The notes under the pieces are model-generated. The model ran no database searches. It was given only the letters and a program-made list of their open reading frames with translations, and was not told the DNA's origin. A DNA stretch of 50,081 nt from Saccoglossus kowalevskii (taxonomy: Eukaryota > Hemichordata > Enteropneusta > Harrimaniidae), in contig NW_003134343.1 in assembly GCF_000003605.2 (NCBI RefSeq), positions 109,991 to 160,071 on the forward strand, in the 5' to 3' direction. Of this stretch, positions 1,723 through 37,061 are shown in pieces. Within the stretch, counting starts at the first letter, position 1. Each line of letters starts with the position of its first letter. A program made the translations under genes and the position numbers.

Positions 1723-2518
1723 CATGGTTATTTACAACAAGTAAACGTCGCACGATTGCCACGACAGCCAACGTTATCATACTGACACAGTTGAAGAACC
1801 AACCAGAAAATCCAGTCAAAGTACATCCAATTGAACCAAAACGCCACTTGAGAAGTAAAAAAGAATATTATCATAACATGTGTGTGGCTCATCAACAGCC
1901 TAATCATAGGTGCAATACAAGCCCCTTTGGTAAACAGTGTAGAAAAGTTTGAAAAGTGGGAGAGTATTATCAACATATCAACATTTAATTAGAAGTAACA
2001 ACTGTTATTTACCGATTACCACTATGAATCTAATTACGCTACAGACTCAGTAGCAAAACTACTCTTTGCTGCAATCTCAAGATGCAATTTTGGGAAGTAC
2101 TTTATTTTTAATAGACGTCTTATGTTATGATTCCAAAATTCAACAAAATAGTGAACCAAATGAGGTACTTAACATCTGCATATTCAATTAATCATGTTTC
2201 CAATGTGAGATGAAAGACATCCTACATAGTAAAAATGTGACAAATTCGATAATTGCTACAGATTATTTATTGACTGAATGACTTACTGAATGGCTGACTG
2301 ACCGTTGAAATAATGAGTTTTAACGAGGAATTAATGATCAACTGTTTCACTTACCTTAGTACTAAAAGATGAAATTGCCGCTAACATATAACTAGTAGTA
2401 ACGGCGCCAATATCAGCAATGGCGATGTTAGCTAATAAATAGTCTGGTATCTTTAGCTGTTTTCTCTGTTTAAATTTCGAAGCTAAATAAATTACATTGC
2501 CGAACAGTGACAGTAGGC
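1723..2518 (-). CDS. Opsin-like rhodopsin-family GPCR, partial (TM1-TM3, two exons)
   Basis: Two minus-strand exons join cleanly: 2518-2355 (acceptor TTTGTTTAG, donor AAG/GTAAGT, ending in phase 0) and 1846-1723 (acceptor ACTTCTCAAG, donor ATG/GTAAGT, phase 1). Exon one gives the end of TM1 with the conserved G-N pair (LLSLFGNVIYL), a basic first loop and TM2 LLANIAIADIG with the conserved Asp. Exon two gives WRFGSIGC with the TM3 disulfide cysteine, then SMITLAVVAI. This layout, especially W-x-FG-x-x-GC and S-M-I-T-L, most resembles opsins of the neuropsin/peropsin type. The position of the usual D/E-R-Y motif reads V-R-R. The N-terminal exon and TM4-TM7 (including the retinal lysine) were not found, so opsin identity is an inference and the gene may be partial or broken. 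A LINE relic lies just downstream. Confidence 0.65.
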
Positions 2519-2576
2519 CTAAACAAAAACATTCAATAGATTTATTAGAATTGGATTCCAAACACGAACGATACAT

Positions 2577-3379
2577 TAATAATCAACACTCATACGCTGT
2601 TTAAATGCTTTCACGAAGCCGCGTGGACAGAATTGAGGGGGTGTGGCTACTGAAATTTAGGGTGTCAATTAGCGTTCTGTAAGTAAATGCGTATAAACTG
2701 ATAACAACGCGTAGATTATTTAGCGTTACTGTGCAAAACAGCGATTGACAAGAGTTTGTCACAACAGGAGGAGTGTTCGAAGCCTTACAACGCAACAAAT
2801 TGTTGCTAGTTCGCTGTTAACAACTTATCGGGGATAACAGGTGTTCGATATGAGTAAGCATAACTTGCTGACCAGTCACACCCATCATGATTGGTCTTAT
2901 GTTACGTCACGTAAATAGGCATCTAATCTATGATCTATATAGTCATAATTAGGAATGTTGTCTTGTATAATTTGCTTGACAGATATTTGGTAATTATCTT
3001 AAATTAATGTCTAGGAAATAAACTTTTCTGTTTGACCTTCCTTAACTAGCTTTTCAGTTAGAGCTGTTACTTTTAAAAGATACGAGAAATTGATAATTCC
3101 AAAATTGAAATTATCCCGCCTATCTTGCAACTTACAGTGTAAACCATAAAGTTTATTTTGTAGGAACAGACCAAGGTAAGAAACTGAATTCATGCTCTCT
3201 TGTGTGTCCTTGGTGGTAAGTTATTCAGGATAAATTAAGTGAAGATAACTAGGAAATCTTTGCTATTTAAACAGTGAAATATGCTGGTTCATTGGGCAGA
3301 CGTATTGCCTTTATGCTTATTAGAGACTATATTTGACGGCCCTGATATTTATGTTTACCGAATGGCTTATTCTATAGTT
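2577..3379. other. Non-coding, no gene recognised
   Basis: Upstream of the opsin-like exons on their strand. The first exon (N-terminus and start of TM1) may lie here but no segment could be assigned. Short open frames show no motif. Confidence 0.35.
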
Positions 3380-12204: not shown

Positions 12205-15200
12205 TTACAGGCAAATCAATCCAACATCAGTGCTGTGTTGACAGGACGTAAATCCCCATCCGTTGTGGTCGCACTGTGCCAATGAGGTTTCATTGCCATG
12301 GCAATTCACAGATTGCATTAATATGTCTGCAGTTCCTACTCCGAAGTCCGTCCTTGCATACACTACCTGTGGGCTACTATATCTGTGAGAAGATAAACGT
12401 GCATATATATATAATTATTTATTATATTTTGGGATATTCTACCTGGATCGGTGTGGATTTCGCTATATAGTGTTCAGAGTTCGCAATGTCAGATAAATAA
12501 GCAGGGGGACGATTCCACCAATGCACACAGTAAACAGATACATACAATAGAAGAGAGACGTCTTGACACAAATGATAAAAACAGGGGTTCGCAGAACGGA
12601 GCTAACATCATGACTAAGCATACTAATAACAATGATAACAAACCAAGTTTAAAATCAACCTGCCATGTATGATAATAACCCAATATGTTACAATCACCAT
12701 GGCTACTTACCCAAACCCCAGCTCTTTACAAACAACAACGGCTTCTTCATGTCCAAATCCATAGGTGTGGCAAACCGTGCCCCATATGTCCTCGAGCGAT
12801 ACTTCAAGTCTTCCTTCATTGGCTGTACTTCCTCCAACTAGACGGACGTCTTAACGAGAAACAAAACATGTACTGTGAAATTAACAGTTTAATTGATATA
12901 AAGCCCGTGTACATTTATTCGCAATATGTAGACACCAAATTTTGACTAATACTAGTTGACCAGTAATGTTGAAATTGGATTTGAATAGTTGAAATGACAA
13001 AACACAATCAGTGTGTTAGAATGCTCATCATAATAATTGTAAGTCAGTCGTGTTAACACTGTGTCACATCATGTTTACGCAGACTAATAATATACAGCAT
13101 AAATAACATACCGAATGTGCTCATATTGACGTTACACACCACTTGTAAATCATTTATCGACTGACCACTGCCCCACGTAGCCATTCCTGCATCACTGCAC
13201 TGTATGAGGGCGGTCTCATCACCATCGCAGTTAAATTGACGGCGTTCCAGGGTGCCATCACCAAATTGGTACTGAACTCTCATAGCTTCATGTCTACAAG
13301 GGATGCAGGTACAATAGAAGATAAGGAGCAAGTACAAACTGTGGAAGACAAGACGTTTGTTTCGGGACAGATTGTAGCTGACGTACGGAAGAAAAGGCTC
13401 CGTATAATCATAGACCCTCCAGTCTACTACTCATCACCATCGCAGTTAAATTGACGGCGTTCCAGGGTGCCATCACCAAATTGGTACTGAACTCTCATAG
13501 CTTCATATCTACAAGGGATGCAGGTACAATAGAAGATAAGGAGCAAGTACAAACTGTGGAAGACAAGACGTTTGTTTTGGGACAGATTGTAGCTGACGTA
13601 CGGAAGAAAAGGCTCCGTATAATCATAGACCCTCCAGTCTACTGGAGGGTCTATGGTATAATACCTAAAAATGACGTTTCGCTGTGATAATGCACATTCG
13701 AGGCAGTTGATGCATTGTTTTAAATGAGAGTTCTTAAACTATGTTTTTACGTTTTTATTTAATTATCCACCACAAAGAACTGGTATTCTAATACTTTAAA
13801 TTCGCTTACTGATAACCCAGTTCTCTGCATATGACACCGACAATCGGGAAGTTTGATGACGAACCGGCAACAGCCACCATACCCATCCATGGTAATCTAT
13901 TCATTGACACTTCTACTTTTCCCTCTTTCACGTTCCGTCCATTTACTAATCGGATATCTGCAAAAAAAAACATAGGTGGACAGAGTTCGCAATTGTATTA
14001 TAGCTTGTTAGTTTTAACCAGGGTCTAAATAATGAATGATGAATAATGTAAATTGTCTTTTTAAAGTGGGGGAGTCGTCACCTGCGCATGCGTCAGATGG
14101 CCACAGCGTGTCATTGTTTATAAACAAGCGTCTACCCATGAGCCATTGTGTTTTAGCGTGTGTTGTTATAGTCGCTTGGGACTCAATTCTCGCGCGTGCG
14201 CAGATGACGACCCTCCCGCTTTAAATAACGGCAAAAATACACAAACACACCAGTAAGACACACACACAACTGCCCTACCTATTGATGTAAGATTACACAC
14301 TAGCCTCGGCTGGACACACGGGTAGTTCCACTCCTGGAGGGTGCCCTCTATAAAACCTAGTGTACTGCATTCCCGGATGTTTGACTCTGAACCTTTACAT
14401 GACCAATCACGAACCAGAAACATTGCTAAGATGTCGGTGGTCTGCATATCTTGATTGAAATTTGTCAAGTAGTTCACGGATGAGGAAGGGTCTCCGCTGA
14501 ATTGAATTGCACATAAATTATATTTATCAGAATACGTTAATGATTATTATTAGTATGTTTATAGACACGTAAGTCTGTCGAATTTGTTTCGTAACCTAAC
14601 CAGCAATATCAGCTAATTGTCTGTCAGTGTTACAGGAAACCAGTAGAGCGTTTTCAGATTTAGAGGCAGCTGTATTGTCAGCAATTTACCTGACGATATT
14701 GTTGGTTAGTTCTACGGATCAAATTCGCGGCCACAGTACGTTCGATCCTATTTTTATATGCTCTAGGCACGATGAGCTTTAGCATATGCTATAATCTCGT
14801 CTCAGACTTTACGTACCCTAGATCTAGCTCCGTGCAAATGACATTTGGCACTCTGGTGGGATTTTTCATGTCTTCATAACATAAAAGGCCATCTACTCCA
14901 TTTGCGGATATGGCTACGCCCCCTTCAAAGTCACCAATCCCATCCATCAATCGTAGATCTGTTACAGGAGACATTTGTATGAATACAGGATTGGTAGCGC
15001 GTATATGCATATGGTAATTAATAGTTAATGTTTGTTTGTTTGTAATTATTTACACGTGTGGGTGTGAAGTCATAATTTCAATGTATATGTGTCGTTTTAC
15101 GGGATTTTCAAGTTAAAGTCGCAAATTACGTGTTTTGTAAGCAAGCCAATATTTACGGAAATTGCGATTTCTGGAATAATGATGTTTAAAGTGCAATGTT

Positions 15201-18200
15201 CGCTATGCAGTCCTGTGAAATCAACAGTATATTTTTAATAATAAACATTAAGTGTTTATCTCTCCATTAATTATTTTGAATATTAATAAAGTTTATTTTA
15301 AGCAGACTTAGACTAAACTTTCAATTTATTGTCTGGTATACACATGTCTTCAACAACCTATTTTCAAGTTAAAATCGCTTGCAACAACACATCATAACAA
15401 AATTGATTTTACAAAATATCAAAATAGTATTTGGTTCAGTACAGGTTCAGTACAGTTCATGCTACTCAAGCACAAAGTCTATACAAAACGTATTTGACAA
15501 TTACCAAATTGCTCCACAATATAATCACATTCAACAGTCATCGGAAATTGTGTGTAAAAGTCGGTATAACCGTCATCGATACATTCGGCAAGAGAAGACT
15601 CTGTACCATGGCAAACCATTTGCAGATAACGCGGTCCAAGGTACTTTGGTTCTTGGTAGATATACTGTACATCTCTCCTGGAATACGAACACGAGATACG
15701 TATGAATATGCACCCGTATACCGATATGAACACACCCAACACTGATATGAACACACCCAACACTGATATGAACACACATACTAGTTGTCACAACGTTACC
15801 AAGTATTAATTACGATAAATAGTCGCAATGTCTCACCGATCAGTTACCTGACGTTAACTTTATGTATACGCGCTACTAACTAAGTTGTGAAAACAACGGT
15901 CTCTTGATGACGACGATCGCGAGTTACTAAAACATCAAACGTTGCATGTTATCAAGCCTTGCTAACCCTAGTTAGTGTCATTCTTAACGGTATTATTATT
16001 ATGCACTAAAACAGTTGTCAATGATGTCATAACATGCCCGATTATGCACGAAATTGTATATTACAATAACCGATATAAGAACATACCCGTGACCGAGTTG
16101 GTGACAAGCAACTACGGCGGTAGAAAAGAACCTACTCGTATCCCATGATTCATGCCAACCCTGTAGCAATAATGTATCCCATGATGCACCGCGAAACACC
16201 TGTATATATCCACCCTTTGTCAAATTGCCTTGTTCGTATCGTACGGCTATAACGTGAGAAGGAAGACTATATGATTACGTTTCTCAGAAAACAATGATAT
16301 AGTTTGAGAAGTCTCAAAAACAGGGGAGACCCAGCGAAATTGACGCCATAACAAAGACGCTTTGATATTTAATATTTAGTTCAATTTCTTTGGTTATTTT
16401 GATTATTTGGATACATTTTGTAGCAACAAACCGGGTATTATTACAGCACGTTGTCTCAATAAAATAATGAACAAATACAATTTCAAATTGAAGTTTGATC
16501 CGACGAACTTAAATTATTGCTACAAATGCGCCACTGGAAGGCAGAAACATCGTGACTACAAATTCGTAATTCTTACCTAACGAGTCTGCTCTTATTCCAC
16601 ACACGACTCCAACAGTGAAATATTGAAGACATGACACGTCCTGAGATATTGTCCATTCACACTGGTCAATGGTCTGCTCGTTACCATGGCAATGCAGATT
16701 CTTCAGCACGAAAGAGGAGGTTGCTGAACCATGACCAAAATGACTGTTGTAGCGAGGTGACGCACCGCCCCTGTGACGAAAGTAGTCAAACAATTGCAGT
16801 CAATGCAAATATAACACAATAAAATAAAATGATTATCAATATTGTTATGAAAATCTGACTCCGAATCTACCTGATGTCCAAATGTCTGCAAATAACCTTG
16901 GCCTCCGCGTATGTGAAATCTGTTCTAAGTCCACATATTGCAATCCATTGATCGTTCTGCCACACTTCCACACCGCCCTGTGTATCATTGCCTCCAAACA
17001 GACGCAGTGCTATAAACAAGTGTACATGTCAACAAATCGTCTGGCGTGGTGAGTTCAGTAACACAAAGTTTCTGCCATTTTTCACGCCGCGGGCTTCCCA
17101 TGGCTTTGTTAGCTAACACCACGAAATGTCATTAAAATTAATTGATTGAACTATCGTTTCTATAGGCCCTCAAAAACGTCCTGTTTTGTATCAAAATATT
17201 GTAAACATGCAAAGAAAAACAAATAACACCACCTTAAACCAGAAATAGTTAAAATATACCTTATTGGAAGCATCCCGGCATCATTTGGTCACGTGGTATG
17301 TCACACAGTCGAGGTCATTGGTTAACATTCACCAGATAAATTATCTTATAAATTATAACATATTTATAACAAATAAAATAACATTCATTCATATGTTTGC
17401 GTGCGTAGTTAGGAGTACAATTTTATATTATTTCAAAGATCATTGGTGGGATTTATTTAATTACTTTTATGTGATGTGGAAGTAATGTGATGTAATGTTT
17501 GTAACATACGTGATCGTGGTATCGGCTGTGTGGTCGGCGTCACTGTTGTCAACTTCGACATAGTATTGATTGTCCCCGTTTTCACTGTGGTCGCTATGGA
17601 GATGAGACAATAAAATAATAATAATACTTATTAGCTCATATGGATAATGTTAACTGTGCTACGTGTTAAATGATAACGAAATAAAACATACCAGTTCCCG
17701 GTACCACAGTTATAATATCTATGAAAAAAAACAGAACATTTTGAAATTACTGAGTGCTCTTCTGTGTTGCGTCATTTGTCTTTACACACTGCGGCCAACG
17801 ATTAATTTAGATGTCGGTTATATTGAAGCATAAACCCTTGTCATACCATGAACATGTGAGTGTTATAGAACCAGATTAAATTGAAGCAACGAATGAGTTA
17901 GAACATTTTAACAATTTGTTGACAACTCAAAGTGCACGTGAAAATCAACATTGATTGGTCATTTCTTGAATAAATTTGTTAACATAAATTTAAAATCTAT
18001 AATCAGCCAAGTGCGTTGCAACCCATTCTTGTTCTTACAACCCTCTGTTTTCACCGACAGAATGTAACGAGTTAGTCCAGTGTTGATTTGATTCAACGAT
18101 GACATTGTGAGAACAAACAGAGAATTGTTCGCAAATACGTGTTTTTTTTAGATTTTATTCATATCTCTCACTCCCTTTCTCTTCCCATTATTTTTCCTCC

Positions 18201-19073
18201 CCATCTCTCTTTATCTCTTAATCGCAATTTACAAATAATATGCAACGAAATTTTAATTTCCCCAAAATTAAAGTTTAAAATCACCACATTTCGTATAGAT
18301 GATCAAGATCACAATGACAATCCCAATTTCATGTCAGAAAATCGTTCTATTATTGTGATACACCATAAAGTATTTGTGTATTGATTTCATGATGACACGG
18401 CCACAAAAATACATTTTTATAAAAACTGCTTGTCGGCTGGGTCATGGAGTTAATAAATAGCAAACTAATAGACACGGTAAATGGAATTTCATGTATAGTG
18501 TTTGTAAAGCTTCGTTTCACTGAAATGAGTGCTGGGCGCCACTGGCCACATTATTCAAAGAGAACATTTAATGTACTGAACTGACATGATGTAACAGTCG
18601 TGCAGTATAGCATGTGTGACACTATTTGCCTCGCATTAACAGTGTTACTACAGAAGCTAACATATTGCCCTGAACGGAAAGGCGAGTTTTTACAGGGACT
18701 CAATCGTGTACTGTTCATCGATGAACAAAGGAGTTACATTAGTTATAATGGTCTTGTTAGTAACAAACGTCATACGTGGGCAATCGAGGGTGAATTCGTG
18801 TACAATGAATTCACGCTATTCTTTTAATTCACTGAATCGTTTAAACTAAAGTAGTATTAAAACAGAGCCATATTTACATGAGACACGTGTCATACCTTGT
18901 TGTGATTTGCCTTTAGAACTGGCGGCGACCACAGATATTGTCACAGAGACGACAATGACGCAGACAATGAGAACGATAACGCCTATGATGATTGCCAACG
19001 TACGACCCTTAGGTGCTTCATATGATGTTTCATCTGTTGATCTGTCTAGTCGATATTTGTCTTCATTAGCCAT
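12205..19073 (-). CDS. Type II transmembrane protein with five SRCR domains (13 exons, 653 aa)
   Basis: Exons, minus strand: 19073-18896, 17718-17692, 17593-17510, 17009-16871, 16770-16577, 16246-16087, 15677-15505, 14958-14817, 14496-14279, 13957-13810, 13293-13112, 12849-12711, 12382-12205. All have AG/GT borders with matching phases and give 654 codons with one terminal stop. Residues 1-24 are charged; 25-51 form one hydrophobic helix (AIIIGVIVLIVCVIVVSVTI) with no signal peptide, so a type II membrane protein. Residues 60-96 are a Thr/Pro-rich stalk. SRCR domains: about 97-207, 208-318, 319-438, 439-548, 549-653. Each is coded by two exons (phase 1-2-1), the group A arrangement. Domains 1, 3 and 5 have six Cys; 2 and 4 have four. 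Group A SRCR proteins are often cell-surface ligand-binding or scavenger receptors; the ligand here is unknown. Paralogue at 32009-37061. Confidence 0.9.
13216..13645. repeat. Recent 215-bp tandem duplication across an SRCR exon border
   Basis: 13216-13430 and 13431-13645 are nearly identical: I saw two substitutions (at 13292/13507 and near 13363/13578) before they diverge at the last few bases. Each copy holds intron sequence, the acceptor and the first 78 nt of exon 11 of the five-SRCR gene (minus strand). Copy 13216-13430 runs on into the full exon; the other is a partial extra exon. Confidence 0.95.
13431..13508 (-). pseudogene. Partial duplicate of an SRCR4 exon (possible cryptic exon)
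   Basis: On the minus strand this has the same acceptor (CCCTTGTAG) as the true exon at 13293. It codes 26 residues, up to the CDGDE stretch of SRCR4, with His changed to Tyr near the start. Read-through hits an in-frame TAG two codons past the junction (about 13427-13429). The junction also makes a GT (GATGA/GTAGTA), so a 78-nt exon in phase 2-2 could be spliced in without a frameshift. It could be silent, cause truncation or add 26 residues; transcripts would decide. Assembly collapse of two haplotypes is another explanation. Confidence 0.7.
13624..13655. repeat. Perfect 14-bp inverted repeat (hairpin) at duplication border
   Basis: CATAGACCCTCCAG at 13624-13637 and its exact reverse complement at 13642-13655 are separated by TCTA. 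The left arm also occurs in the other copy (13409-13422) without the right arm, so the duplication breakpoint falls inside this hairpin. Confidence 0.95.
14065..14220. mobile_element. MITE flanked by TTAA, copy 1 (156 bp)
   Basis: Ends AGTGGGGGAGTCGTCACCTG and, inverted, AGCGGGAGGGTCGTCATCTG form terminal inverted repeats of nearly 30 bp, continuing into TGCGCATGCG/TGCGCACGCG. TTAA flanks both sides (14061-14064, 14221-14224). It lies in the intron between the two halves of the SRCR3/SRCR4 region of the five-SRCR gene. A second copy is at 39174-39325. TTAA targets are typical of piggyBac-type transposases, but the family is not proven. Confidence 0.85.
15717..15776. repeat. 21-bp direct repeat, about three copies
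   Basis: ACACACCCAACACTGATATGA-type units repeat three times in the intron just upstream of the second SRCR2 exon on the minus strand. Reading it as protein gives a spurious repeated frame. Confidence 0.85.
17692..17718 (-). other. 27-nt microexon in the SRCR protein stalk
   Basis: Acceptor TTTCATAG and donor ACTG/GTATGT bound a 27-nt exon in phase 1-1 that codes nine residues (D-I-I-T-V-V-P-G-T with the split codon). It fits between the transmembrane exon and the Thr-rich stalk exon. It is symmetric, so it could be skipped without a frameshift. No counterpart was seen in the paralogue at 32 kb. Confidence 0.7.
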
Positions 19074-19547
19074 ACTCTTTTATAACGTGTGATCGGTGTG
19101 ACATACGACAATCAGATCAGACTCCATGGGCACAGACGCCCAGTGTTTACGTTTATTCAAAGCTACCAGTGACCTTAACTCGGCCATACAAAGCGCCCTC
19201 ACATCCATAAATGAGACCCACTTTCTAGGCACTCTCCACGCAAGATGGCGCTTCTTCAAATCACTTTTCAAATCAGCCTGCTTGCGCTAAGAACTCTGGG
19301 AACGAGAGTGCTTTCTAGGTTGACCTCAACGTGCCTCATTTTAGTGGTCAAAGGTCAAGTTCATGTCGATACAACAATTACACATATTTAGACCCAATAC
19401 AAACGATGTAGTGAGTCTAAACTGAGAGAGCTGTTTAGTTTTAAAAATGGAATGAGCCCGAATGAGTCACTGGTGCTTATTTGACCTCTGACATGAATGC
19501 GCTTATGAATTTGTAGCGTGTAACGAGCATATCAGACTACTAATACA
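19074..19547. promoter_or_regulatory. Shared promoter region between divergent SRCR and PTGR1 genes
   Basis: The two start codons are 474 bp apart and point away from each other. TGGTCA-A-AGGTCA (19345-19357) matches the DR1 consensus bound by HNF4 and RXR heterodimers. TGACCT-C-TGACAT (19482-19494) is a second DR1-like site on the other strand. TGAGTCA (19463-19469) is an AP-1 core. A TATAAAA-like string on the minus strand ends about 8 bp before the SRCR start codon, too close to act as its TATA box unless the start is further downstream. Function is inferred from motifs only. Confidence 0.5.
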
Positions 19548-28147
<8,600 letters not shown>

Positions 28148-29357
28148 CTTGAGCTAGACCAGGTAAGAGTTTTGCATCTAGTGGTGTGGGAGATCAACAT
28201 GCGTCTATTGAAAGATATGGTTGGTGACTGACGCTAAACATGGCACATTTAATTGCTGTCCAAAACAATGTAAATTAGCGATATGTCGTTCACATTCATT
28301 TCTACATCGCCATCAAATGTTACGATTCATGTTGTAACTGCACACTCAGCACAAAGCTTGCTTATTATAATTGAAATAGAAAATGAGCGAATTTATAATT
28401 AGTATATCGTTCATGTTTTCAAATGTGTGTATACGCAGATGTACAGATGCTGTTTACTCGGCAGTATTCGATGACACTGTTAATATGTTTTACAATTACA
28501 GAGCCAATATAACCAACCCATATAGCCATATTGAATAATCTATTGATGATTTTATCCCATGAATTAATTGAGAAGCCAATTGATATATTCGTCACAATAC
28601 TCCCAGCGGCACAGGATTTCGCATTGAACAAGTTTCCATTTGTAAACAGTGTCATAATGATGTTACAATGTATGTTGTCATACCATATTATGTGGAATTC
28701 TTATGGTTTATGTTTATTATAATTCGTTATATAATCATATATATGTTCCATAATTATTGTACGTGCAGTAAATTGCTATTAACGTGTTTGCTTGGAAATT
28801 GCACCATTAAAACAATAAAAGTCGGAGCATACTTGTAAATATTTAATGCTACTGTCATACTCTATTTTTTTTATGAAACTTCAAGAATCAACCAATCGAC
28901 CATCACATGCGTGATCACGATATAAGCCACCAACGGTGGGCACAGTCTCATCTTTTTTCTCTTTGTTTCAAATAAAAAAAAAATTGCAAAGCACTAATTA
29001 CCAGCTTTCAAGGCTAAGCGCGAAGGCACTAAAGATAGATTAACAAACCTGATTAAATTGAGCTGTTTAGGCAATGTGAACCGATGATTTATAATGGATT
29101 AGATGAAAAGACTTTTGTGGTGTTTTGTAGGAATTTATTTTCATTGGTTTTTGGCAAGTTGAATGTAAAATATAGGGAAAAGGGTATATTTGCTGGATAT
29201 TATTTTTACCGAATCATTCCTTCAGCGAAAATAGCGAACATCAGTTAAAGTATTAAAAAGTATACTTACATAAATTATTCTCATACGTCAGTCGTCTCTT
29301 TTTCAATGTCTTTAATATAGCATTGTTCATGTGTGTATCTGCATTATTCCTCAGGTA
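28148..29357. other. PTGR1 3' flank and intergenic sequence
   Basis: An AATAAA hexamer at 28814-28819 is a candidate PTGR1 polyadenylation signal, about 670 bp past the stop. Otherwise AT-rich, with no open frame of recognised family. Confidence 0.45.
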
Positions 29358-29430
29358 TTCCAGTTATGCATATTAATAAGATCACATGTCCGTATCTGAT
29401 ATCATGTGATATGTTAGTCATATCTCTTGT
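29358..29430 (+). mobile_element. Fragment related to the PTGR1 intron 3 repeat element
   Basis: AGTTATGCATATTAATAAGA and TCACATGTCC followed by TAGTCATATC resemble 21146-21200 in order and sequence, so this is likely a short dispersed piece of the same family. Confidence 0.5.
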
Positions 29431-29733
29431 CCAATACTTTCATTATAACACTTGTTGCATTCAAATGTTCTCAAGCAAAATTTACTTTAATTCATACAAT
29501 ATCAGAAGTGCCGTTCCAGTTACCAACCGATTTGCAGGATAACACACTCATGCGAGACCTGGCAGTTTCTCCTTATAGCGAAGAATATTCTGTATACCAG
29601 AAGATCAACACAATACAGCGTATGACATGGTGGGAGTGTGTACAAATCCTAAGCCGTCGCTGGGTTGGTGTGGCTTGTTAGCTGTATATATCTGGTAGCA
29701 TTGCTTATGTGCGGTCTTCGAATCCGAACACAA

Positions 29734-29803
29734 CGTTCAGCACCATCAATGTGGTGAAACCTCATTGACGGTGCTGAATGTTACGTTGCATGAAACGTAA
29801 CAT
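29734..29803. repeat. Two abutting hairpins
   Basis: CGTTCAGCACCATCAATG (29734-29751) pairs with 29763-29780 with two mismatches across an 11-nt loop. ATGTTACGTT (29778-29787) pairs perfectly with AACGTAACAT (29794-29803) across a 6-nt loop. The two stems share three bases. Confidence 0.85.
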
Positions 29804-29896
29804 CACTGTGATGACGAATACATTGTGGGATACGGAAAAAGAGCCTGAAGTATGCGCACTGCGTACACATTATGCTAATAACCTTTAACAAGGTTA

Positions 29897-30755
29897 TTGT
29901 CACAGTGTAAGGCTACAATAGAAGCTCCTCGGGAGAGTTTAGGGTTTTCACCCTTCAATCTTATTTATGGCAGAACAGTGAGGGACCCAATGATGATTTT
30001 AAGAGTGTTGTGCACAAAGGAGGCTACTACACCAGACGTTAAAACTACTTACCATTATGTCCTGGATTTGCGAAATCGGCTTGAAGAGACATGTAAATTG
30101 CTCAAGCTGAGTTAGCTGAGGCAAAGGTTAGATACAAAAAGTATTATGATAGGAAGGCCAGGTATAGGAAGTTCCAACCCGGCGATAAAGTGTTAGTGTT
30201 ACTTCCCACTGACCACAATAAGTTGTTGATGCAATGGCAGGGGCCATATGTAATTAAGAAGAGAGTGGGTATGACGGATTACAGAATGGGTGTAAAAGGC
30301 AAGGTGAAAATGTATCATGCTAACTTGCATATTACGAAAGAGACAAACTGAATGACAAGAAAGTGGTTACAGGGGTGTTAGGTTTTGTATTGATTTTCGC
30401 AAACTCAATAGCATTACAGTGTTCGATGCAGAACCAATGCCATCACCTGAAGACCTATTTTCACGGTCGGTACTTCACCAAAATTGATCTAACCAAGGGT
30501 ACTGGCAGATCCCGATGGGTGAGGGGTTTAAAGAAAAGACAGCCTTTCTCACATCTGATGGTATATTTCAGTTTCGACTTATGCCTTTCGGGCTTGTGAA
30601 TGCACCAGCCTCTTTTTCCTATATGATGCGTATTTTCAAGTTGTTGGTAGGTCTTGAAGGTAAAGTTGAGAATTTAATTGATGACATTTTAATTTATTCA
30701 AAATCTTGGGAAGAGCATGTGCAGATTGTACAGGACGTTTTTTGCAGGGTTTGAG
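29897..30755 (+). mobile_element. Decayed Ty3/gypsy-like retroelement, integrase C-terminus followed by reverse transcriptase (Gmr1-like order)
   Basis: Integrase part, about 29897-30350, in two frames with a shift near 30100: SLGFSPFNLIYGR, then a YYDRKAR segment, FQPGDKVLVLLP and WQGPYVI (the GPY/F module). It ends in a stop near 30350. Reverse-transcriptase part, about 30380-30755, again with a frameshift near 30502: CIDFRKLNSIT, YFTKIDLTKG, EKTAFLTSDGIFQFRLMPFG, LVNAPASF and the catalytic LIDDILIYS. Integrase lying before reverse transcriptase is the reverse of normal Ty3/gypsy order and is known from Gmr1-like elements of deuterostomes. The N-terminal part of the reverse transcriptase, RNase H, gag, protease and LTRs were not seen. 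The copy is inactive. Confidence 0.8.
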
Positions 30756-30759
30756 GTAA

Positions 30760-31857
30760 TATGACAAAACATGAAATAAAGGATGCTGACAGTTATGACG
30801 TGGGTATATCTCATGAATATTATTTGAAAGTGGAACGTCGGAATCACGTATTTCGGTCTTGGTCCCACTCTGTCTATTGTGGTAATTTTGAAGACTGTAA
30901 ATGCTTTCTATCATACTAAACTGGTCACCAAATTTAACAACTGTTTTGGGGTTTTACCCAAATCTACATGAGCGACGACAAGCCTCAATAGGTCTCTATT
31001 GTATACAGCGCCACCAGTGGCTGTTCCAGGCTCCATGCGTCTAACGTTTAGAACTTATATAGCAAGTAATGAGCGCGGACTTACAGTGAGTAAATGAACC
31101 GAAATTCCAATGAACCAACGCCAAAATACGAAAGCTGCGTATCTGACGTCACGTATAGGCCCGGGTATTCATGAATGGTAAGTATGTCCTATTCAGTTAC
31201 GCTATTCCAGAAAAAGCATATGTCTTAGTTTCACTCAAGTCGAAATGCGATCAAACGGATTCAGTATATACATGTGGCCACTAACCACAACTCTGTAGAA
31301 GACTGCTATACACTTTATAACGAAAAACAGCGTCCTCAACACAACATTCTAAATAAATCCCTACAGTAGGTTGAGAGACTATTTACGATTAGTGTAGCCG
31401 CGCTTTTATTAATGTAAGAATGTTATCAAAACAAGCAATAGAAACAATGGCATAGGCTTCATCAACATTCTCAAGTAATACATCCATATAACTCAATCCG
31501 GCCATGTTAAATCTTCCTAATTTACACTAGATTTAGCGTTTTGTAGTAAAATATAAGGAGATACATTAAAGGAAAATAAAGTTGAAAAAAAAACAATTAA
31601 ATGACACGATTTTTATGCATCAAATCCTCAAGTGATCCACCTACAGGTACCATTAAGAAATACATTATACATGCTGTTGAGTTCAATAGGGAAACACTTA
31701 GAAAGAAAAAGATATATTAAAGGTCGCTGTAGGTTTATGGTTAATATTACATCATATCTAACACAACAGAAAGCAATCTTGTTTTGTGACACGGTTCGGT
31801 GTAGCGCCTTGTTTAAATGCTTAACACGTGACCAATAAAAAACCGGAATTCGACACT
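30760..31857. other. Intergenic, no gene recognised
   Basis: No further retroelement domains and no coding segment recognised. It leads into the promoter of the three-SRCR gene. Confidence 0.4.
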
Positions 31858-31863
31858 TATAAA
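31858..31863 (+). promoter_or_regulatory. Candidate TATA box of the three-SRCR gene
   Basis: TATAAA about 146 bp before the chosen start codon. An E-box CACGTG (about 31825) and CCAAT (about 31831) lie just upstream. Motif-based only. Confidence 0.35.
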
Positions 31864-32008
31864 ATATCTTGGGTTAAGTACGGCCTTTAAACCTGTCACA
31901 GTGAAATGTCAAAGTTCAACAATACGGTAAACCAGTGTCGTGCTCGAAAACATAACGCTTACTTTACGATATTTCCAGCTGTGCCACTGCCATATCGGCG
32001 GCCGAGAT

Positions 32009-35000
32009 ATGGATGTGCATTGTAATTCAGACTTGTCGCCCGCGGCTCGCCAGATATCGTACTCCGGCGGTCGCTTGATGTTAATAGCTGTGGCAGTTAT
32101 CGTACTTACTGTGTGTGTCATTGCCATCGTGGCTGTTGTTGCGGTCGTGGTACTGGGCGAGTATGATGTCAATGAACTGCTAGAAGGTATGATCGGAGTT
32201 ATTTATTAAGTAGTGGGACCTCTGATTGTTGGAGATATGCAGGAATTGAAGAAACAGAGATATTCCTTACAATTGTTCAAATGCGGCCCTGAAACCAATT
32301 ATAGTAGGAACAAATAATTTTCACTCAATTGCTGACCCCCAGTTTAAATAATGTCACACCCATTAACTCATAGATATTCCCGAGAGTAACATTAAACGAA
32401 GTCTGAGTTGCTTAGTAGATAAACAACATGGCTTCTATAACTAAGCTAATTCGTGTTGGTATATATACAAACTTACACCGCATACATATTATAGGCAAGC
32501 ATCTCTGATTACTTGTTTGTCATCCTTATTACATCACTGTTTTGAACATGGTTGAATTATTATAAATAGGGTCAACGATCGGCATGGTCTACCAGAATCA
32601 ATGAGATACTAATGGGTGTACTAAACCGATATATAAATTAACAGTATAATATCACTGGGAATTACTATGGAAATATGCTAGCACATTTTAGGGTGAGCTA
32701 CATTTTCAAATAAAACTGTTTTTTTTTTCTTCTTGGCAGTGAGTACGGTAGGACAGATGACACCACAGACTGTTCCATGGAAATGTATGTAACATTTACC
32801 ATGTTCACGTTTACGTTAAGCGTGATTATAAAACAGTAAAAATAAATGTAACTGAAATATCCCGCCGTAACTCGTTAATTGGTTATTTCGTCATTCAGTG
32901 ATTATCTCAAAGTATTGAATACGTATAACCATATATAAACAACAAATGATATACTATATTTTTGCATACAGCCTTACGTCTGGTTGATGGAAACGAGATT
33001 GAAGGCAGTGTCGAAGTGTGGGCATACAATGAATGGTTATCACTATGTGGGACGAAGGGCCACTTCAAACACGTGGAAGCCGTGGTTATTTGTCGACATA
33101 TCGGAATCAGGTAATTGTCAAATGAATATATAAAACAAATGTTATGATATATTTAGTCCTGTACAGTGATTAATACTGTTGTTTCAGTTGCGGCTGCACG
33201 GTGGGGGGCAAAGGAGGCAATTGCCCCCTCGAAAAAAATGTTGGGGGCGCCGCCCTTCAAAATCAAGCTGAAACCCTCTGTGTCAGCAAAGTTGGTCCTT
33301 CAAAATGCAGGAAATAGCGTTTCAGATGTCCAAATGTTCAAGGTGGAGCATGCCCCTGTAAGGTCACGCCTTTGGCGCAAGGTGGGTAAACAGGTTTCGC
33401 CCCTTCATGCAAATCTTCGTGACGCCGCCTCTGTGTTTTACACGTTACTTTTGTTTTGTTATTTTATTTTATTTTATTTTATTTTATTTTATTTTATTTT
33501 ATTTTATTTTATTTTATTTTATTTTATTTTATTTTATTTTATTTTATTTTATTTTATTTTAATTTATTTTATTTATACGTTAACCACTTGCCATGGGTAA
33601 ATACATAAAATTATCCCATCAAAAGAGTACAATTTCTACACAAAAAACATGGTAACGAGATAATTATAAGAATACGAATATAAAGTAAAGTAAAAAGAAA
33701 AGAATAGGGGTATGTCAACGTCGCCGCATATTGAATGATTCCCATTGTTCAGTGTGCTTCGCTAATTTGCCCCCCCCCCCCATCGCTATCTCTTTTTTCA
33801 ATATTATAAACTTGCCTGATGAGATATAGACATCCATGGAAAGAAGGTTTTTTTGTTTCTCATTTTTATACGATACAAATATTATATTTGTTTCCAAGGG
33901 GCGGTGCATCTCCTCGGTATAACAGTCATTTCGGACCTGGAAAAAGTAATGCATCTGTTGTTATGAGAAGTCTGCTTTGCAATGGGGACGAGACTGCAAT
34001 CGAACAGTGTGAATATTCCATATCTAAAGACGTGTCGTGTCGGCAAACCAGCACTATTGGTGTTGTATGCGGCATACGTAACAACTCCCTGCGTAAGTAA
34101 TCCAGTCTCTAAATAGTATAACAAGGTTCAACGTTTCCTGCCAACTACGGTTGTGTAGTTTTTGGGGTGGACAGAAGAAGAGAGGGCTGACAAAGTAGAA
34201 GATGGGTGGAAGTTGTTACAGAAGAACTAGCCTGTCCATGTCACCCATATGACAAATTAACATGTAACAAGTCAGTATTACTAACACTGGCATGTATGTC
34301 GAGTGTGTGCATGTGTTCGATGTTTTGTAATATGCATGACGACGGTTTTGCATACAACCGTTTGCGCATGTGACACTAGGGTCACCCCTACATTTAAATA
34401 ATCATGGAGGTTCCATGCTTGAAGTACGGAGTGTGTAAATTAATGCGAGGGGAATATTACTCTTGAACATAATGTGGTAGTCTACATCGGACCTTCGGCA
34501 TCCGAACAACAAAACTTATATGATGTACGAATTATTCAATCGAGACACATTTAGCATCGTTCTAGTTGCTGGCAAAAAACGTGTCGAGCTTATACGTTCA
34601 CATGAGATGACACTTTGTACGCGCTCTCCAAAAAACTGTCTTCCATACACACCAATCGCAGCCAGAACAAGCCGCAGCCTAGAAAGTATTTAGAAATATG
34701 TAAAAAAAAAAGAATATGTTTGTGGAAGCAAGGCGTGTCCTAATATAAAATGATGTAATTTAGCGCACTGAATATATGTTGTGTACAATGGTACTGCCAA
34801 TCATCGATCACTTGGGTCTACGTGTGGAGTCTCGGTATGTCTGCCACTCAGTACTACTAGTATAAAAAACGCAGTTTGGCGTCCACTCGCAGGGGACGTG
34901 AAGCTTTTGGTCATGTTTGCTGCTCCTTTCTTCAGTGCACGTCGACAATTGCAGCATTCTCGTCACAATGAGTAGTAGTTTCCGCGGGAGAAGTAGGCTT

Positions 35001-37061
35001 ACCCTTATTTGAAGTCTATAAAGTTACTATATCATGAAGTGGCTGTCATGTACAGAACGAGCTGATTTTTATAAGCTCAATTTATTATACAAAATTACAA
35101 GCTCTTAACCACCTTTATATCTTTCTAAGATAACTCACACAGACCTAGTTATATTTACCATATAAGCGAACAAATTTATAATGTGTGTAATTCGCCCACA
35201 AGAAGTAACTTCGACGAACGTTAGGCGCTCTGCGGCCTGCTAACATGAGTCCTTGTCACTGTTAAATATAGTATTAACTGCTTAATAGTTTCGCTCATAT
35301 GAGATGTGTTCGGGCAACAGTTTATGATTTGGCCTGACATGTAGGAGTGAGTGGCGCCCTCGCCGGCCGAACGGCATCAGACCCACTACCGACGTGTATT
35401 GGGTTTGGAGCACAACAGAGGGCGCAACTCACGCGACCTAACCATGCTATGTATGAAGTAATTGATTATAGTTTTGTATATATTTCACTGTGTCTAATCA
35501 AATCATTTAACATAGTTATGAAATTTGCTTCGGTTGTACTAAAGCTACCCTGTTTTGATGAATACGCCTTACAAACTATCACTCCCTGACAAAATTGCCT
35601 GTACAGGCATGTGACTTCGAGTTCTATAAAATATGATGTTTTGTGTATAAGATATAGTGATGTCAATTCCCGTGTAAAGACCCCCCACACACACACACAC
35701 AGCGTATACCTATCGCGTTGTTATACACGCCGTCATCCAATGAACGCAAGCAATTCGACCGTCACGTGACAAATTTTCATGGAAATTCTATTAGATTAAA
35801 TTCACAGACAGGGCTTTCCTAAAGAAAAATGTTTTCCAGTGTACATACGTGTACATAGCGTGTCTTGTTTCCAATCTTTGACAAATTTTTGCTGTTTAAA
35901 TTATATCTCATTATCGCTCTACTTTCACCACGATAGGTGTTCGACTCCATGGGGGTGTCCTGCCGAGAGAGGGCCATGTACAGGTGACTTTGAATGGTGC
36001 GTCTTGGGATACATTGCTCGTACAAGGGTGGTATGAATCGTACAATGTGTTTCGTTACTTTTCAACTGCTGCCATTGCTTGTAAACAACTGGGTTACAGG
36101 TAAGTGTACTCAATACTCCGACGAGAAAAATCCAACTCAATCTGTGTCCCTTCCTTGATTTACATAATCTTTTTTGCGCCTTGTCCCCACTTCAATCGTT
36201 TGTACGTATATTTCAGTGGCGTTGTTCAACATATCCTAGAACCAAATGTGCCAAAAAGTCAACGTCTTCGTGTATTGTCGTGCTATGGAAGTGAATCGTC
36301 TTTGGCTGAATGTCTTGATGAAGGATATACTGATTTGTTAATGCGTTTTCCAATGGTAGTAAAATGTGACAACCGTATACAGAAATTTGGTAATTAGATG
36401 TTTATACATTGTAGTTGGACGGCTTGTCTCGTATTGCATTGATTTCAATTATATATTCCGAACCGATCCACCTGAAATATGTGTCTAATATGGTCGCATT
36501 GAATATTTATTTATACTTCATATTCTGATTGTTAAAAGAGCTCAGTTTGCCCAGTGGCATTGTTGCACGGGAAGGAGTGGTAGAAATACACGTGAATGAA
36601 GTTGGTGGCGCCCTCTGTTTCCACAAACACGTCATGAAAAATCCAACCTCTGTCCCAGACGTACTTTGTAGACAACTTGGTTTTAGGTAAGTAAGTGTAT
36701 TTCACTTGGGACTTCAACACTACGTTGCGTAAATCATTCGTCACGACCACATATAGTGATGGGCAATATCAAATCTCTCTTGTTAAATATGAATATGTCT
36801 ATTATCTTCAAACCTCTATAATATCACTGACTGGTACTGTTTGTATTCTTTGATAGTGGCAATTCATCGAAATCGTCCCTTTTATATTTCAACCAAAATG
36901 TACAGTCGAACGACTTGTTAGTGATGATGATTCTCGTTGAAAGCTGGTCCTGTATCGGTTCTGAATCTTCGATTATGGAATGCAGAACGTCAGGTTATTT
37001 ACAAGGCACTCAGGGCGAGTGGAACTATCCATGTACACTGCCAACACTAATGTGTAGATGA
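32009..37061 (+). CDS. Type II transmembrane protein with three SRCR domains (8 exons, 414 aa)
   Basis: Exons: 32009-32186, 32740-32784, 32972-33110, 33899-34092, 35937-36099, 36217-36389, 36539-36686, 36857-37061. Phases match and give 415 codons with TGA at the end. Residues 23-49 form a single hydrophobic helix (LMLIAVAVIVLTVCVIAIVA) after a short polar N-terminus; no signal peptide. The second exon codes a 15-residue stalk. SRCR domains: about 75-185, 186-297, 298-414, each from two exons split in phase 2 (group A arrangement). Domains 1 and 3 have six Cys, domain 2 has four. Exons 1, 3, 4 and 6 have the same lengths (178, 139, 194, 173) as their counterparts in the gene at 12205-19073, so the two are paralogues. 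An upstream in-frame ATG at 31940 would add 23 residues; 32009 is preferred because it gives the same first-exon length as the paralogue. Role: probable surface receptor, ligand unknown. Confidence 0.9.
33180..33450. mobile_element. Degraded mobile-element fragment in intron 3 of the three-SRCR gene
   Basis: GC-rich segment with GGTGGGGGGCAAAGG, GGGGGCGCCGCCC and TTCAAAATGCAGGAAATAGC, resembling dispersed repeat sequence I associate with animal transposon ends; the family cannot be named. It abuts the ATTTT microsatellite. The long open frame across it is not a gene. Confidence 0.4.
33461..33576. repeat. ATTTT pentanucleotide microsatellite
   Basis: About 20 perfect ATTTT units (33461-33560), then a few imperfect ones. 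It lies between the two exons of SRCR1 of the three-SRCR gene. Confidence 0.98.
35349..35430. repeat. Short inverted repeat, 82 bp span
   Basis: GAGTGGCGCCCTC (35349-35361) and GAGGGCGCAACTC (35418-35430) pair at 12 of 13 positions. Possibly a tiny MITE remnant in intron 4 of the three-SRCR gene. Confidence 0.55.

Follow-up and report, generated by a model that had tools for sequence, protein, structure and literature searches.

Class A scavenger receptors are type II membrane proteins with a short N-terminal tail and one SRCR domain, and in hepsin and the TMPRSS family a type II anchor is likewise followed by an SRCR domain. CD163, WC1 and CD5L are either type I proteins with a C-terminal transmembrane (TM) segment or secreted. 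CD163 and WC1 are assigned to group B of the SRCR domains (PMC2906472), described as having eight cysteines and being encoded by a single exon (PMC3100851). Most animal SRCR proteins surveyed in PMC10855680 start with a signal peptide, followed by SRCR domains and then a TM segment and tail. In that survey, the sponge domains described are mostly split over three exons and those of the sea-urchin cluster are single-exon domains with one exception. Adjacent SRCR paralogues with equal exon lengths are common in animals (sponge neighbours agree in 6 of 7 exon lengths), and in 8 of 29 species more than 50% of the SRCR genes lie in tandem groups (PMC10855680). With respect to ligand binding, mutation of the calcium-site Asp residues abolished binding by SALSA and AIM (PMC7043408, PMC11525585), and one conserved dual cation site has been proposed as the general ligand-binding mode of the SRCR fold (PMC7043408).

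Here, we describe two predicted SRCR genes, M5 and P3, of Saccoglossus kowalevskii, both located in the window, i.e., the whole stretch of 50,081 nucleotides that was analysed. With the class A scavenger receptors MSR1/SCARA1, MARCO and SCARA5 they share a predicted type II layout, a short N-terminal tail and C-terminal group-A-like SRCR sequence, whereas they lack a collagen domain, carry more than a single SRCR domain (five in M5, three in P3) and have no Asp at the two calcium-site positions following C2. An array of SRCR domains alone is also found in CD163, WC1 and CD5L; unlike these group B proteins, M5 and P3 have six or four cysteines and two exons per domain, and the TM segment comes first. 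Hepsin and the TMPRSS family show the same order of type II anchor and SRCR domain but, in contrast to M5 and P3, contain a protease domain and do not carry several SRCR domains. The tandem SRCR genes of sponge and sea urchin described in PMC10855680 resemble the pair in that adjacent paralogues agree in exon lengths but not in the number of SRCR domains, yet differ from it in the position of the TM segment and in the number of exons per domain. With its TM segment first and several SRCR domains, the layout would be intermediate, sharing features with class A scavenger receptors on one side and with arrays of the CD163 type on the other.

Gene models of the locus

The region from 12.2 to 37.1 kb contains the following features, with gene models being predicted:

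12205–19073, minus strand: M5 gene, five SRCR domains
18896–19073, minus: M5 exon 1, 178 nt; start codon, cytoplasmic tail of ~24 residues (by eye), signal-anchor TM (model; hydropathy)
17692–17718, minus: possible M5 stalk exon, 27 nt, AG..GT, phase 1 kept (candidate)
17510–17593, minus: M5 stalk exon, 84 nt, Ser/Thr-rich (model)
16871–17009, minus: M5 SRCR1 first half, 139 nt (model and profile search)
16577–16770, minus: M5 SRCR1 second half, 194 nt (model and profile search)
16087–16246, minus: M5 SRCR2 first half, 160 nt, without Cys2 (model)
15505–15677, minus: M5 SRCR2 second half, 173 nt, without Cys7 (model)
14817–14958, minus: M5 SRCR3 first half, 142 nt (model)
14279–14496, minus: M5 SRCR3 second half, 218 nt (model)
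13810–13957, minus: M5 SRCR4 first half, 148 nt, without Cys2 (model)
13215–13643, no strand: 215-nt tandem repeat, copies identical at 212 of 214 positions (repeat search)
13112–13293, minus: M5 SRCR4 second half, 182 nt, without Cys7 (model)
12711–12849, minus: M5 SRCR5 first half, 139 nt (model)
12205–12382, minus: M5 SRCR5 second half with stop codon, 178 nt (model)
19074–19547, no strand: intergenic spacer of 474 bp separating the divergent M5 and PTGR1 genes, start codon to start codon
19548–28147, plus: PTGR1 (leukotriene B4 12-hydroxydehydrogenase / 15-oxo-prostaglandin 13-reductase), ~10 exons (exon count by eye, ends approximate)
32009–37061, plus strand: P3 gene, three SRCR domains
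32009–32186, plus: P3 exon 1, 178 nt; start codon, cytoplasmic tail of ~22 residues (by eye), signal-anchor TM (model; hydropathy)
32740–32784, plus: P3 stalk exon, 45 nt (model)
32972–33110, plus: P3 SRCR1 first half, 139 nt (model and profile search)
33899–34092, plus: P3 SRCR1 second half, 194 nt (model)
35937–36099, plus: P3 SRCR2 first half, 163 nt, without Cys2 (model)
36217–36389, plus: P3 SRCR2 second half, 173 nt, without Cys7 (model)
36539–36686, plus: P3 SRCR3 first half, 148 nt (model)
36857–37061, plus: P3 SRCR3 second half with stop codon, 205 nt (model)

The predicted M5 gene has 12 exons, or 13 with the possible 27-nt exon, and P3 has eight. Both models have GT-AG introns, open frames and splice sites throughout and a stop codon after the last SRCR domain. 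All eight domains are split across two exons with phases 1-2-1, and exon lengths of 178, 139, 194 and 173 nt occur in both genes. Gene models and Pfam agree with a sequence-only reading of this DNA in the coordinates and strands of a five-SRCR and a three-SRCR gene, in their equal intron phases and in the four identical exon lengths. Nothing in the window matched Rfam at gathering scores.

Domain identity and membrane layout

Each of the eight SRCR domains reached the Pfam PF00530 cut-off of 26.1 bits, the lowest scoring 26.6. Apart from SRCR, no model attained its cut-off when full-length M5 and P3 were scanned with Pfam at E up to 1; neither a collagen-like nor a trypsin-like or other protease domain was found. 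The Kyte-Doolittle maximum over 19 residues was 3.53 in M5 (from residue 26) and 3.50 in P3 (from residue 30). Past residue 100, all 19-residue windows of both proteins remained at or below 1.6, which argues against a C-terminal TM segment. Hydropathy therefore predicts a topology with a single N-terminal hydrophobic segment in each protein, in line with the type II layout previously suggested for both genes. Judged by eye, P3 follows the positive-inside rule clearly and M5 weakly, which leaves the orientation a prediction. YxxPhi, NPxY and dileucine motifs were not seen by eye in either cytoplasmic tail, and signalling would therefore require a partner.

Regarding group membership, all eight domains extend over more than one exon as in group A, and five have the six group A cysteines (C2-C7, C3-C8, C5-C6), the exceptions being SRCR2 of M5, SRCR2 of P3 and SRCR4 of M5. 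The group B traits, eight cysteines and a single exon, are absent from all eight, which have six or four cysteines and two exons each. CD163 is the best match among solved sequences, and the closest ones also include PIT54, CD5L, neurotrypsin and further members with SRCR domains. Further SRCR exons gave at least 51 matches in the genome, and a crude hydropathy scan of 22 partial loci, inspected by eye, yielded no convincing additional TM-first SRCR gene.

Paralogy and age of the gene pair

Positional domain pairs of M5 and P3 are 57% (SRCR1), 48% (SRCR2) and 51% (SRCR3) identical, and all remaining comparisons among the eight domains range from 19 to 34%. The domain tree, set beforehand as the refutation test for the proposed paralogy, joined SRCR1, SRCR2 and SRCR3 of the two genes at 99–100% (100/99, 100/99 and 99/99, respectively), with 12 half-domain matches dropped from the comparison set. 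As predicted, M5 and P3 are paralogues; they are colinear and have common motifs such as GGASPRYNSHFG, GASWDTLL and EWNYPC. Over 410 aligned codons they show 49% identity, the values by codon position being 0.61, 0.715 and 0.449. As just 36 of 100 fourfold sites are alike, the duplication is old. The predicted amino-acid sequence is under constraint, though the pair is otherwise saturated. No closer relative turned up elsewhere in the 572-Mb assembly.

The pair had also been interpreted as an inverted duplication. The opposite orientation was confirmed, and the term applies to orientation alone: an ungapped repeat search of 12.0–38.5 kb found no inverted repeat of at least 40 nt linking M5 to P3. 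Age has thus removed the traces of the duplication mechanism, and the arrangement could just as well stem from a subsequent inversion or transposition. The sole inverted pair returned by this search is local, at 23.5–23.7 kb.

Cysteine pairs and calcium-site positions

In SRCR2 of both genes and in SRCR4 of M5, C2 and C7 are lost together, and with them the C2-C7 pair; these domains have four cysteines each, and the number of cysteines per domain along M5 is 6-4-6-4-6.

By spacing, with 39, 22 and 5 residues between coordinating positions, the residues at C2+1 and C2+2 correspond to D1019 and D1020 of SALSA (numbering of PMC7043408). None of the eight M5/P3 domains has Asp at either position; among 21 further domains assembled from the genome, 19 have it at one or both (Fisher P 1e-5; 3e-4 counting the three paralogous pairs once each), the comparison domains being those that could be assembled from an HMM-ranked list, a selection favouring canonical domains. 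Three of four CD163 domains also have it. When Asp, Glu, Asn or Gln are all accepted, the proportions are 3/8 and 21/21 (P 5e-4); M5 SRCR3 has Glu at C2+2, and SRCR2 of M5 and P3 has Gln there. An acidic residue at C7+4, equivalent to SALSA E1086, was seen in 0/6 assessable M5/P3 domains versus 6/19 others.

Because just 6 of the 21 other domains have the full Asp-Asp dyad after C2, absence of the dyad is not telling alone; the contrast at the putative calcium site rests on at least one Asp at C2+1/C2+2, not on the dyad. The coordinating positions C5-4, C5-3 and C7-1 vary among the 21 comparison domains themselves. A Glu four residues past C5, present in all eight M5/P3 domains, was considered as a cation ligand and ruled out by the SALSA spacing check; it speaks neither for nor against cation binding. 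Judged from sequence, what is new here is the loss of the C2-C7 pair in SRCR2 and SRCR4 and the lack of Asp at both calcium-site positions in all eight domains.

PTGR1 and the region shared with M5

The gene between M5 and P3 had been named as PTGR1, and this identification holds: it lies on the plus strand and matches PTGR1 best (5e-94, with 1e-49 for PTGR2 and 2e-23 for PTGR3; hand-joined query without some junction residues). The best NCBIfam model, TIGR02825, scored 344 bits with this incomplete query, below its cut-off of 579.85. M5 and PTGR1 are arranged head to head, with 474 bp between their start codons, and may use a common promoter region.

Interpretation and alternative explanations

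We consider it fairly probable that M5 and P3 are two paralogous type II receptors, derived from one old duplication, whose group-A-like SRCR arrays bind independently of cations. In each, a short cytoplasmic tail would precede a single signal-anchor helix, followed by a short stalk and, at the C-terminal end, an array of five (M5) or three (P3) SRCR domains. The array would face outward, and its surfaces would bind a protein or other ligand without bridging calcium, acting as an immune or epithelial receptor for adhesion or recognition and not as a broad polyanion scavenger. The general cation-site proposal would meet a natural counter-example in two open, constrained genes whose domains all lack Asp at the key positions, and such genes would reveal other abilities of the SRCR fold. 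M5 and P3 appear to be functional genes that belong to a known superfamily and represent an unusual, possibly undescribed variant; among the best-matching open-licence PMC articles, no title or abstract beginning names a type II receptor that has several SRCR domains and neither collagen nor protease.

Alternatively, both genes could be part of the ordinary SRCR pattern-recognition repertoire of animals, i.e., local duplicates that bind microbes or polyanions like MARCO, CD163 and SALSA and involve no special mechanism. SRCR arrays and local duplicates are common in invertebrates (PMC10855680), and the closest solved sequences and the many further SRCR exons of the genome fit such a scenario. 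It is possible, though on the doubtful side, with the missing Asp in 8/8 domains and the missing cysteine pair in three speaking against it. A scenario of decay, in which the SRCR4 tandem repeat disrupts M5 and/or P3 has been truncated with loss of SRCR4-5, seems improbable. Through the 215-nt repeat, the splice acceptor and the initial part of the exon for the second half of SRCR4 are present twice, and use of the upstream acceptor would, by eye, lead into a stop codon; the repeat may interfere with the splicing of M5 or may be an artefact of assembly. For P3, tblastn with SRCR4 and SRCR5 gave no plus-strand match past 36687 and the profile search no SRCR match past 37055 in the window, in line with truncation, but three domains could equally be the ancestral number. 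Moreover, decay is at odds with the open frames and splice sites of both models and with the amino-acid constraint that the pair shows despite being otherwise saturated.

A functional module, in which DR1-type elements of the 474-bp stretch co-regulate M5 and PTGR1 and couple recognition to lipid-mediator clearance, is likewise unlikely. Besides the head-to-head arrangement, it draws on AGGTCA, the most over-represented hexamer of this stretch (4 versus 0.16 expected, P 2.3e-5, or ~0.05 corrected for 2080 hexamers; motif picked after the sequence was read), and on two DR1-like pairs (19345–19357 and 19482–19494), which we take to be of the nuclear-receptor element type. With at most one mismatch, these are two of only three DR1-like sites in the window; at up to two mismatches, however, the window total of nine was reached in 9 of 100 shuffles. 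Very unlikely, in our estimation, is a broader proposal of a receptor class without the calcium-bridged site and, in alternate domains (6-4-6-4-6 cysteines), without one cysteine pair, whose five-domain member shares one nuclear-receptor-type promoter with PTGR1. If this promoter reading were true, recognition and lipid-mediator inactivation would be transcribed together.

Separately, a 29,825-aa open frame at C354 adjoins long N runs (L006, 1453 N; L026, 3116 N) and was attributed to masked or gap sequence, with a giant gene being rejected.

Gene models and age of the duplication

Two SRCR genes, M5 and P3, were modelled by reading both strands and placing GT-AG introns in the window, which is animal-type DNA with introns from a 572-Mb assembly of 4830 contigs (contig C2594, positions 109991-160071), the genome searched here. 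Both models are complete:

12205-19073, minus strand: M5, five SRCR domains (M5_1 to M5_5 from the N-terminus); 12 exons, 13 if a possible 27-nt stalk exon is counted; 644 residues without that exon
32009-37061, plus strand: P3, three SRCR domains (P3_1 to P3_3); 8 exons; 414 residues

In both genes, exon 1 ends in phase 1 and is followed by a stalk exon, and each SRCR domain occupies a pair of exons that starts in phase 1, is interrupted in phase 2 and, except where the final stop is reached, ends in phase 1. Four exon lengths described as identical in the sequence-only reading (178 nt for exon 1, 139, 194 and 173 nt) are indeed common to both gene models, position by position; the remaining four shared exons are unequal (M5/P3: 84/45, 160/163, 142/148 and 218/205 nt). 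An in-frame TAA AAG AGT directly precedes the M5 start codon. A 215-nt tandem repeat at 13215-13643, with copies identical at 212/214 positions, doubles the end of an intron together with the beginning of an SRCR4 exon of M5. Since use of its first acceptor leads to a stop, the repeat may stem from recent duplication, from heterozygosity or from misassembly.

Compared by position, the domains of M5 and P3 are 57% (SRCR1), 48% (SRCR2) and 51% (SRCR3) identical, versus 19-34% for every remaining pairing of the eight. A tree was built from 33 domains, comprising these eight, 21 others of this genome and four of CD163, with 12 unpaired half-domain hits left out. It joined M5_1 with P3_1 (100/99), M5_2 with P3_2 (100/99) and M5_3 with P3_3 (99/99). 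The deeper order was poorly resolved (15/30 inner branches open); M5_4 lay on a long branch, and the placement of M5_5 among canonical domains lacked firm support. M5 and P3 share 49% of their residues across 410 aligned codons, with identities of 0.61, 0.715 and 0.449 at codon positions 1, 2 and 3, and fourfold sites are alike in 36/100 cases. These values, with synonymous sites near saturation and the protein conserved, indicate that the duplication is old and that both genes are under constraint.

Genome searches, which score the best candidates only and may miss distant relatives, returned 14 matches for the P3 ectodomain (six P3 itself, six M5 and two elsewhere at E 0.003) and 39 for M5, of which 18 fall on the M5 contig; the 21 on other contigs all lie within residues 512-644, around the canonical SRCR5. 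The genome-wide SRCR count is a lower bound and therefore no argument against SRCR expansion. Elsewhere, a minus-strand cluster of two-exon SRCR domains (loci L023-L025, contig C51:50000-76000) represents one long multi-SRCR gene or several genes.

Domain content and membrane layout

The eight SRCR domains of M5 and P3 all score at or above the Pfam cut-off for PF00530. Scans of the complete proteins, with hits admitted up to E 1, found PF00530 in both, a match below threshold to the related model SRCR_2 in M5, and no collagen or protease domains in either; single-domain scans added sub-threshold matches to unrelated models only. By hydropathy, both proteins contain a single strongly hydrophobic stretch, close to the N-terminus. 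Since this run of ~27 residues is on the long side for a signal peptide that is cleaved and no later one follows, a type II signal anchor is the best reading predicted for both proteins. No classical endocytic motif was seen by eye in their short tails.

Class A receptors combine type II topology with collagen and one SRCR domain. M5 and P3 are predicted to have the same topology; collagen and the single SRCR domain set class A apart from them. The usual SRCR protein order, as given in excerpts of one paper, is signal peptide, SRCR domains, transmembrane segment and tail, and the same excerpts document neighbouring SRCR duplicates with equal exon lengths (PMC10855680). Among the best literature matches in open-licence PMC papers, no multi-SRCR receptor of type II that lacks both collagen and protease was recognised. 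M5 and P3 appear to be a variant form within the known SRCR superfamily, with a putative transmembrane-first multi-SRCR layout.

Joint loss of C2 and C7, and absence of Asp at two calcium-site positions

In SRCR domains C2 bonds C7, according to excerpts of two papers (PMC11525585, PMC3100851). Among the 33 domains, both cysteines are absent from M5_2, P3_2, M5_4 and one domain elsewhere, and no complete domain has lost C2 alone or C7 alone; a truncated hit (L004) lacks C2, its C7 position lying beyond the hit end. Because the pair is jointly missing in M5_2 and M5_4, the M5 domains alternate six and four cysteines. The domain elsewhere (L030, 2233-4003 on contig C1281, minus strand) carries Ser at both positions, a further joint loss of the pair.

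As described in excerpts of PMC7043408 and PMC11525585, SALSA holds one surface cation by D1019, D1020 and E1086 and the other by D1020, D1058, D1059 and N1081, and mutating D1019 or D1020, or the matching pair in AIM, abolishes binding. Mapped by spacing on a CD163 domain (39, 22 and 5 residues), these sites fall at C2+1, C2+2, C7+4, C5-4, C5-3 and C7-1. By the same spacing, the Glu at C5+4 is not a cation ligand.

Residues at the mapped positions in M5/P3 and in other domains of the genome.
Residues and position; M5/P3; other genome domains; P
Asp at C2+1 or C2+2; 0/8; 19/21; 1e-5 (Fisher)
Asp or Glu, same positions; 1/8; 19/21; 1.7e-4
Asp, Glu, Asn or Gln, same positions; 3/8; 21/21; 5e-4
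Complete Asp-Asp dyad; 0/8; 6/21
Acidic at C7+4; 0/6 assessable; 6/19
Acidic at C5-4; 1/8; 8/21
Acidic at C5-3; 1/8; 7/21

The Asp contrast, in which CD163 scores 3/4, holds with the three paralogous pairs counted once (P 3e-4); the remaining domains of the genome were retrieved by an HMM from the M5, P3 and CD163 domains and most had to be put together from halves, so that the set may be biased towards canonical domains. The added positions and looser residue counts agree with it in direction. With 6/21 other domains and 2/4 of CD163 carrying it, the complete dyad itself is not universal, and the calcium-site claim rests on any Asp at C2+1 or C2+2. Most likely, the SRCR array would face outward on its type II anchor and act in cell-cell or particle recognition via cation-independent surfaces.

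PTGR1 and neighbouring features

Between M5 and P3, eight plus-strand frames (19.5-28.1 kb) were compared with Pfam; four of them match oxidoreductase domains, one (ADH_zinc_N) above cut-off. The hand-joined protein matches PTGR1 (5e-94) and PTGR2 (1e-49) among solved sequences, and its best NCBIfam model is leukotriene B4 12-hydroxydehydrogenase, with a score under cut-off. Two papers, one about the transcriptome of a cancer and one about implantation in mice, contain both the terms SRCR and PTGR1.

M5 and PTGR1 stand head to head with start codons 474 bp apart. AGGTCA occurs four times in this stretch (19074-19547; expected 0.16) and tops the hexamers present, with P 2.3e-5, or ~0.05 corrected for 2080 hexamers. 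If no more than one mismatch is allowed, the window has three DR1-like sites, two of them in this stretch; such sites averaged 0.4 per window in ten 50-kb sequences simulated from a first-order model. At two mismatches, the window total of nine is unremarkable, being reached in 9 of 100 shuffles. Because the motif was chosen after the sequence was read, the enrichment is a lead only. Further features of the window are:

2334-2582, minus strand: frame whose product resembles the beginning of a receptor of the rhodopsin family; 7tm_1 match below cut-off (E 0.076); opsin-like by eye
29882-30751: broken retroelement remains between PTGR1 and P3; RVT_1 reverse transcriptase match in frame 30488-30751
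31906-31918: further DR1-like site, with two mismatches, ~90 bp upstream of the start codon of P3
42940-45690: one 916-codon frame, downstream of P3, that contains ~20 ankyrin repeats
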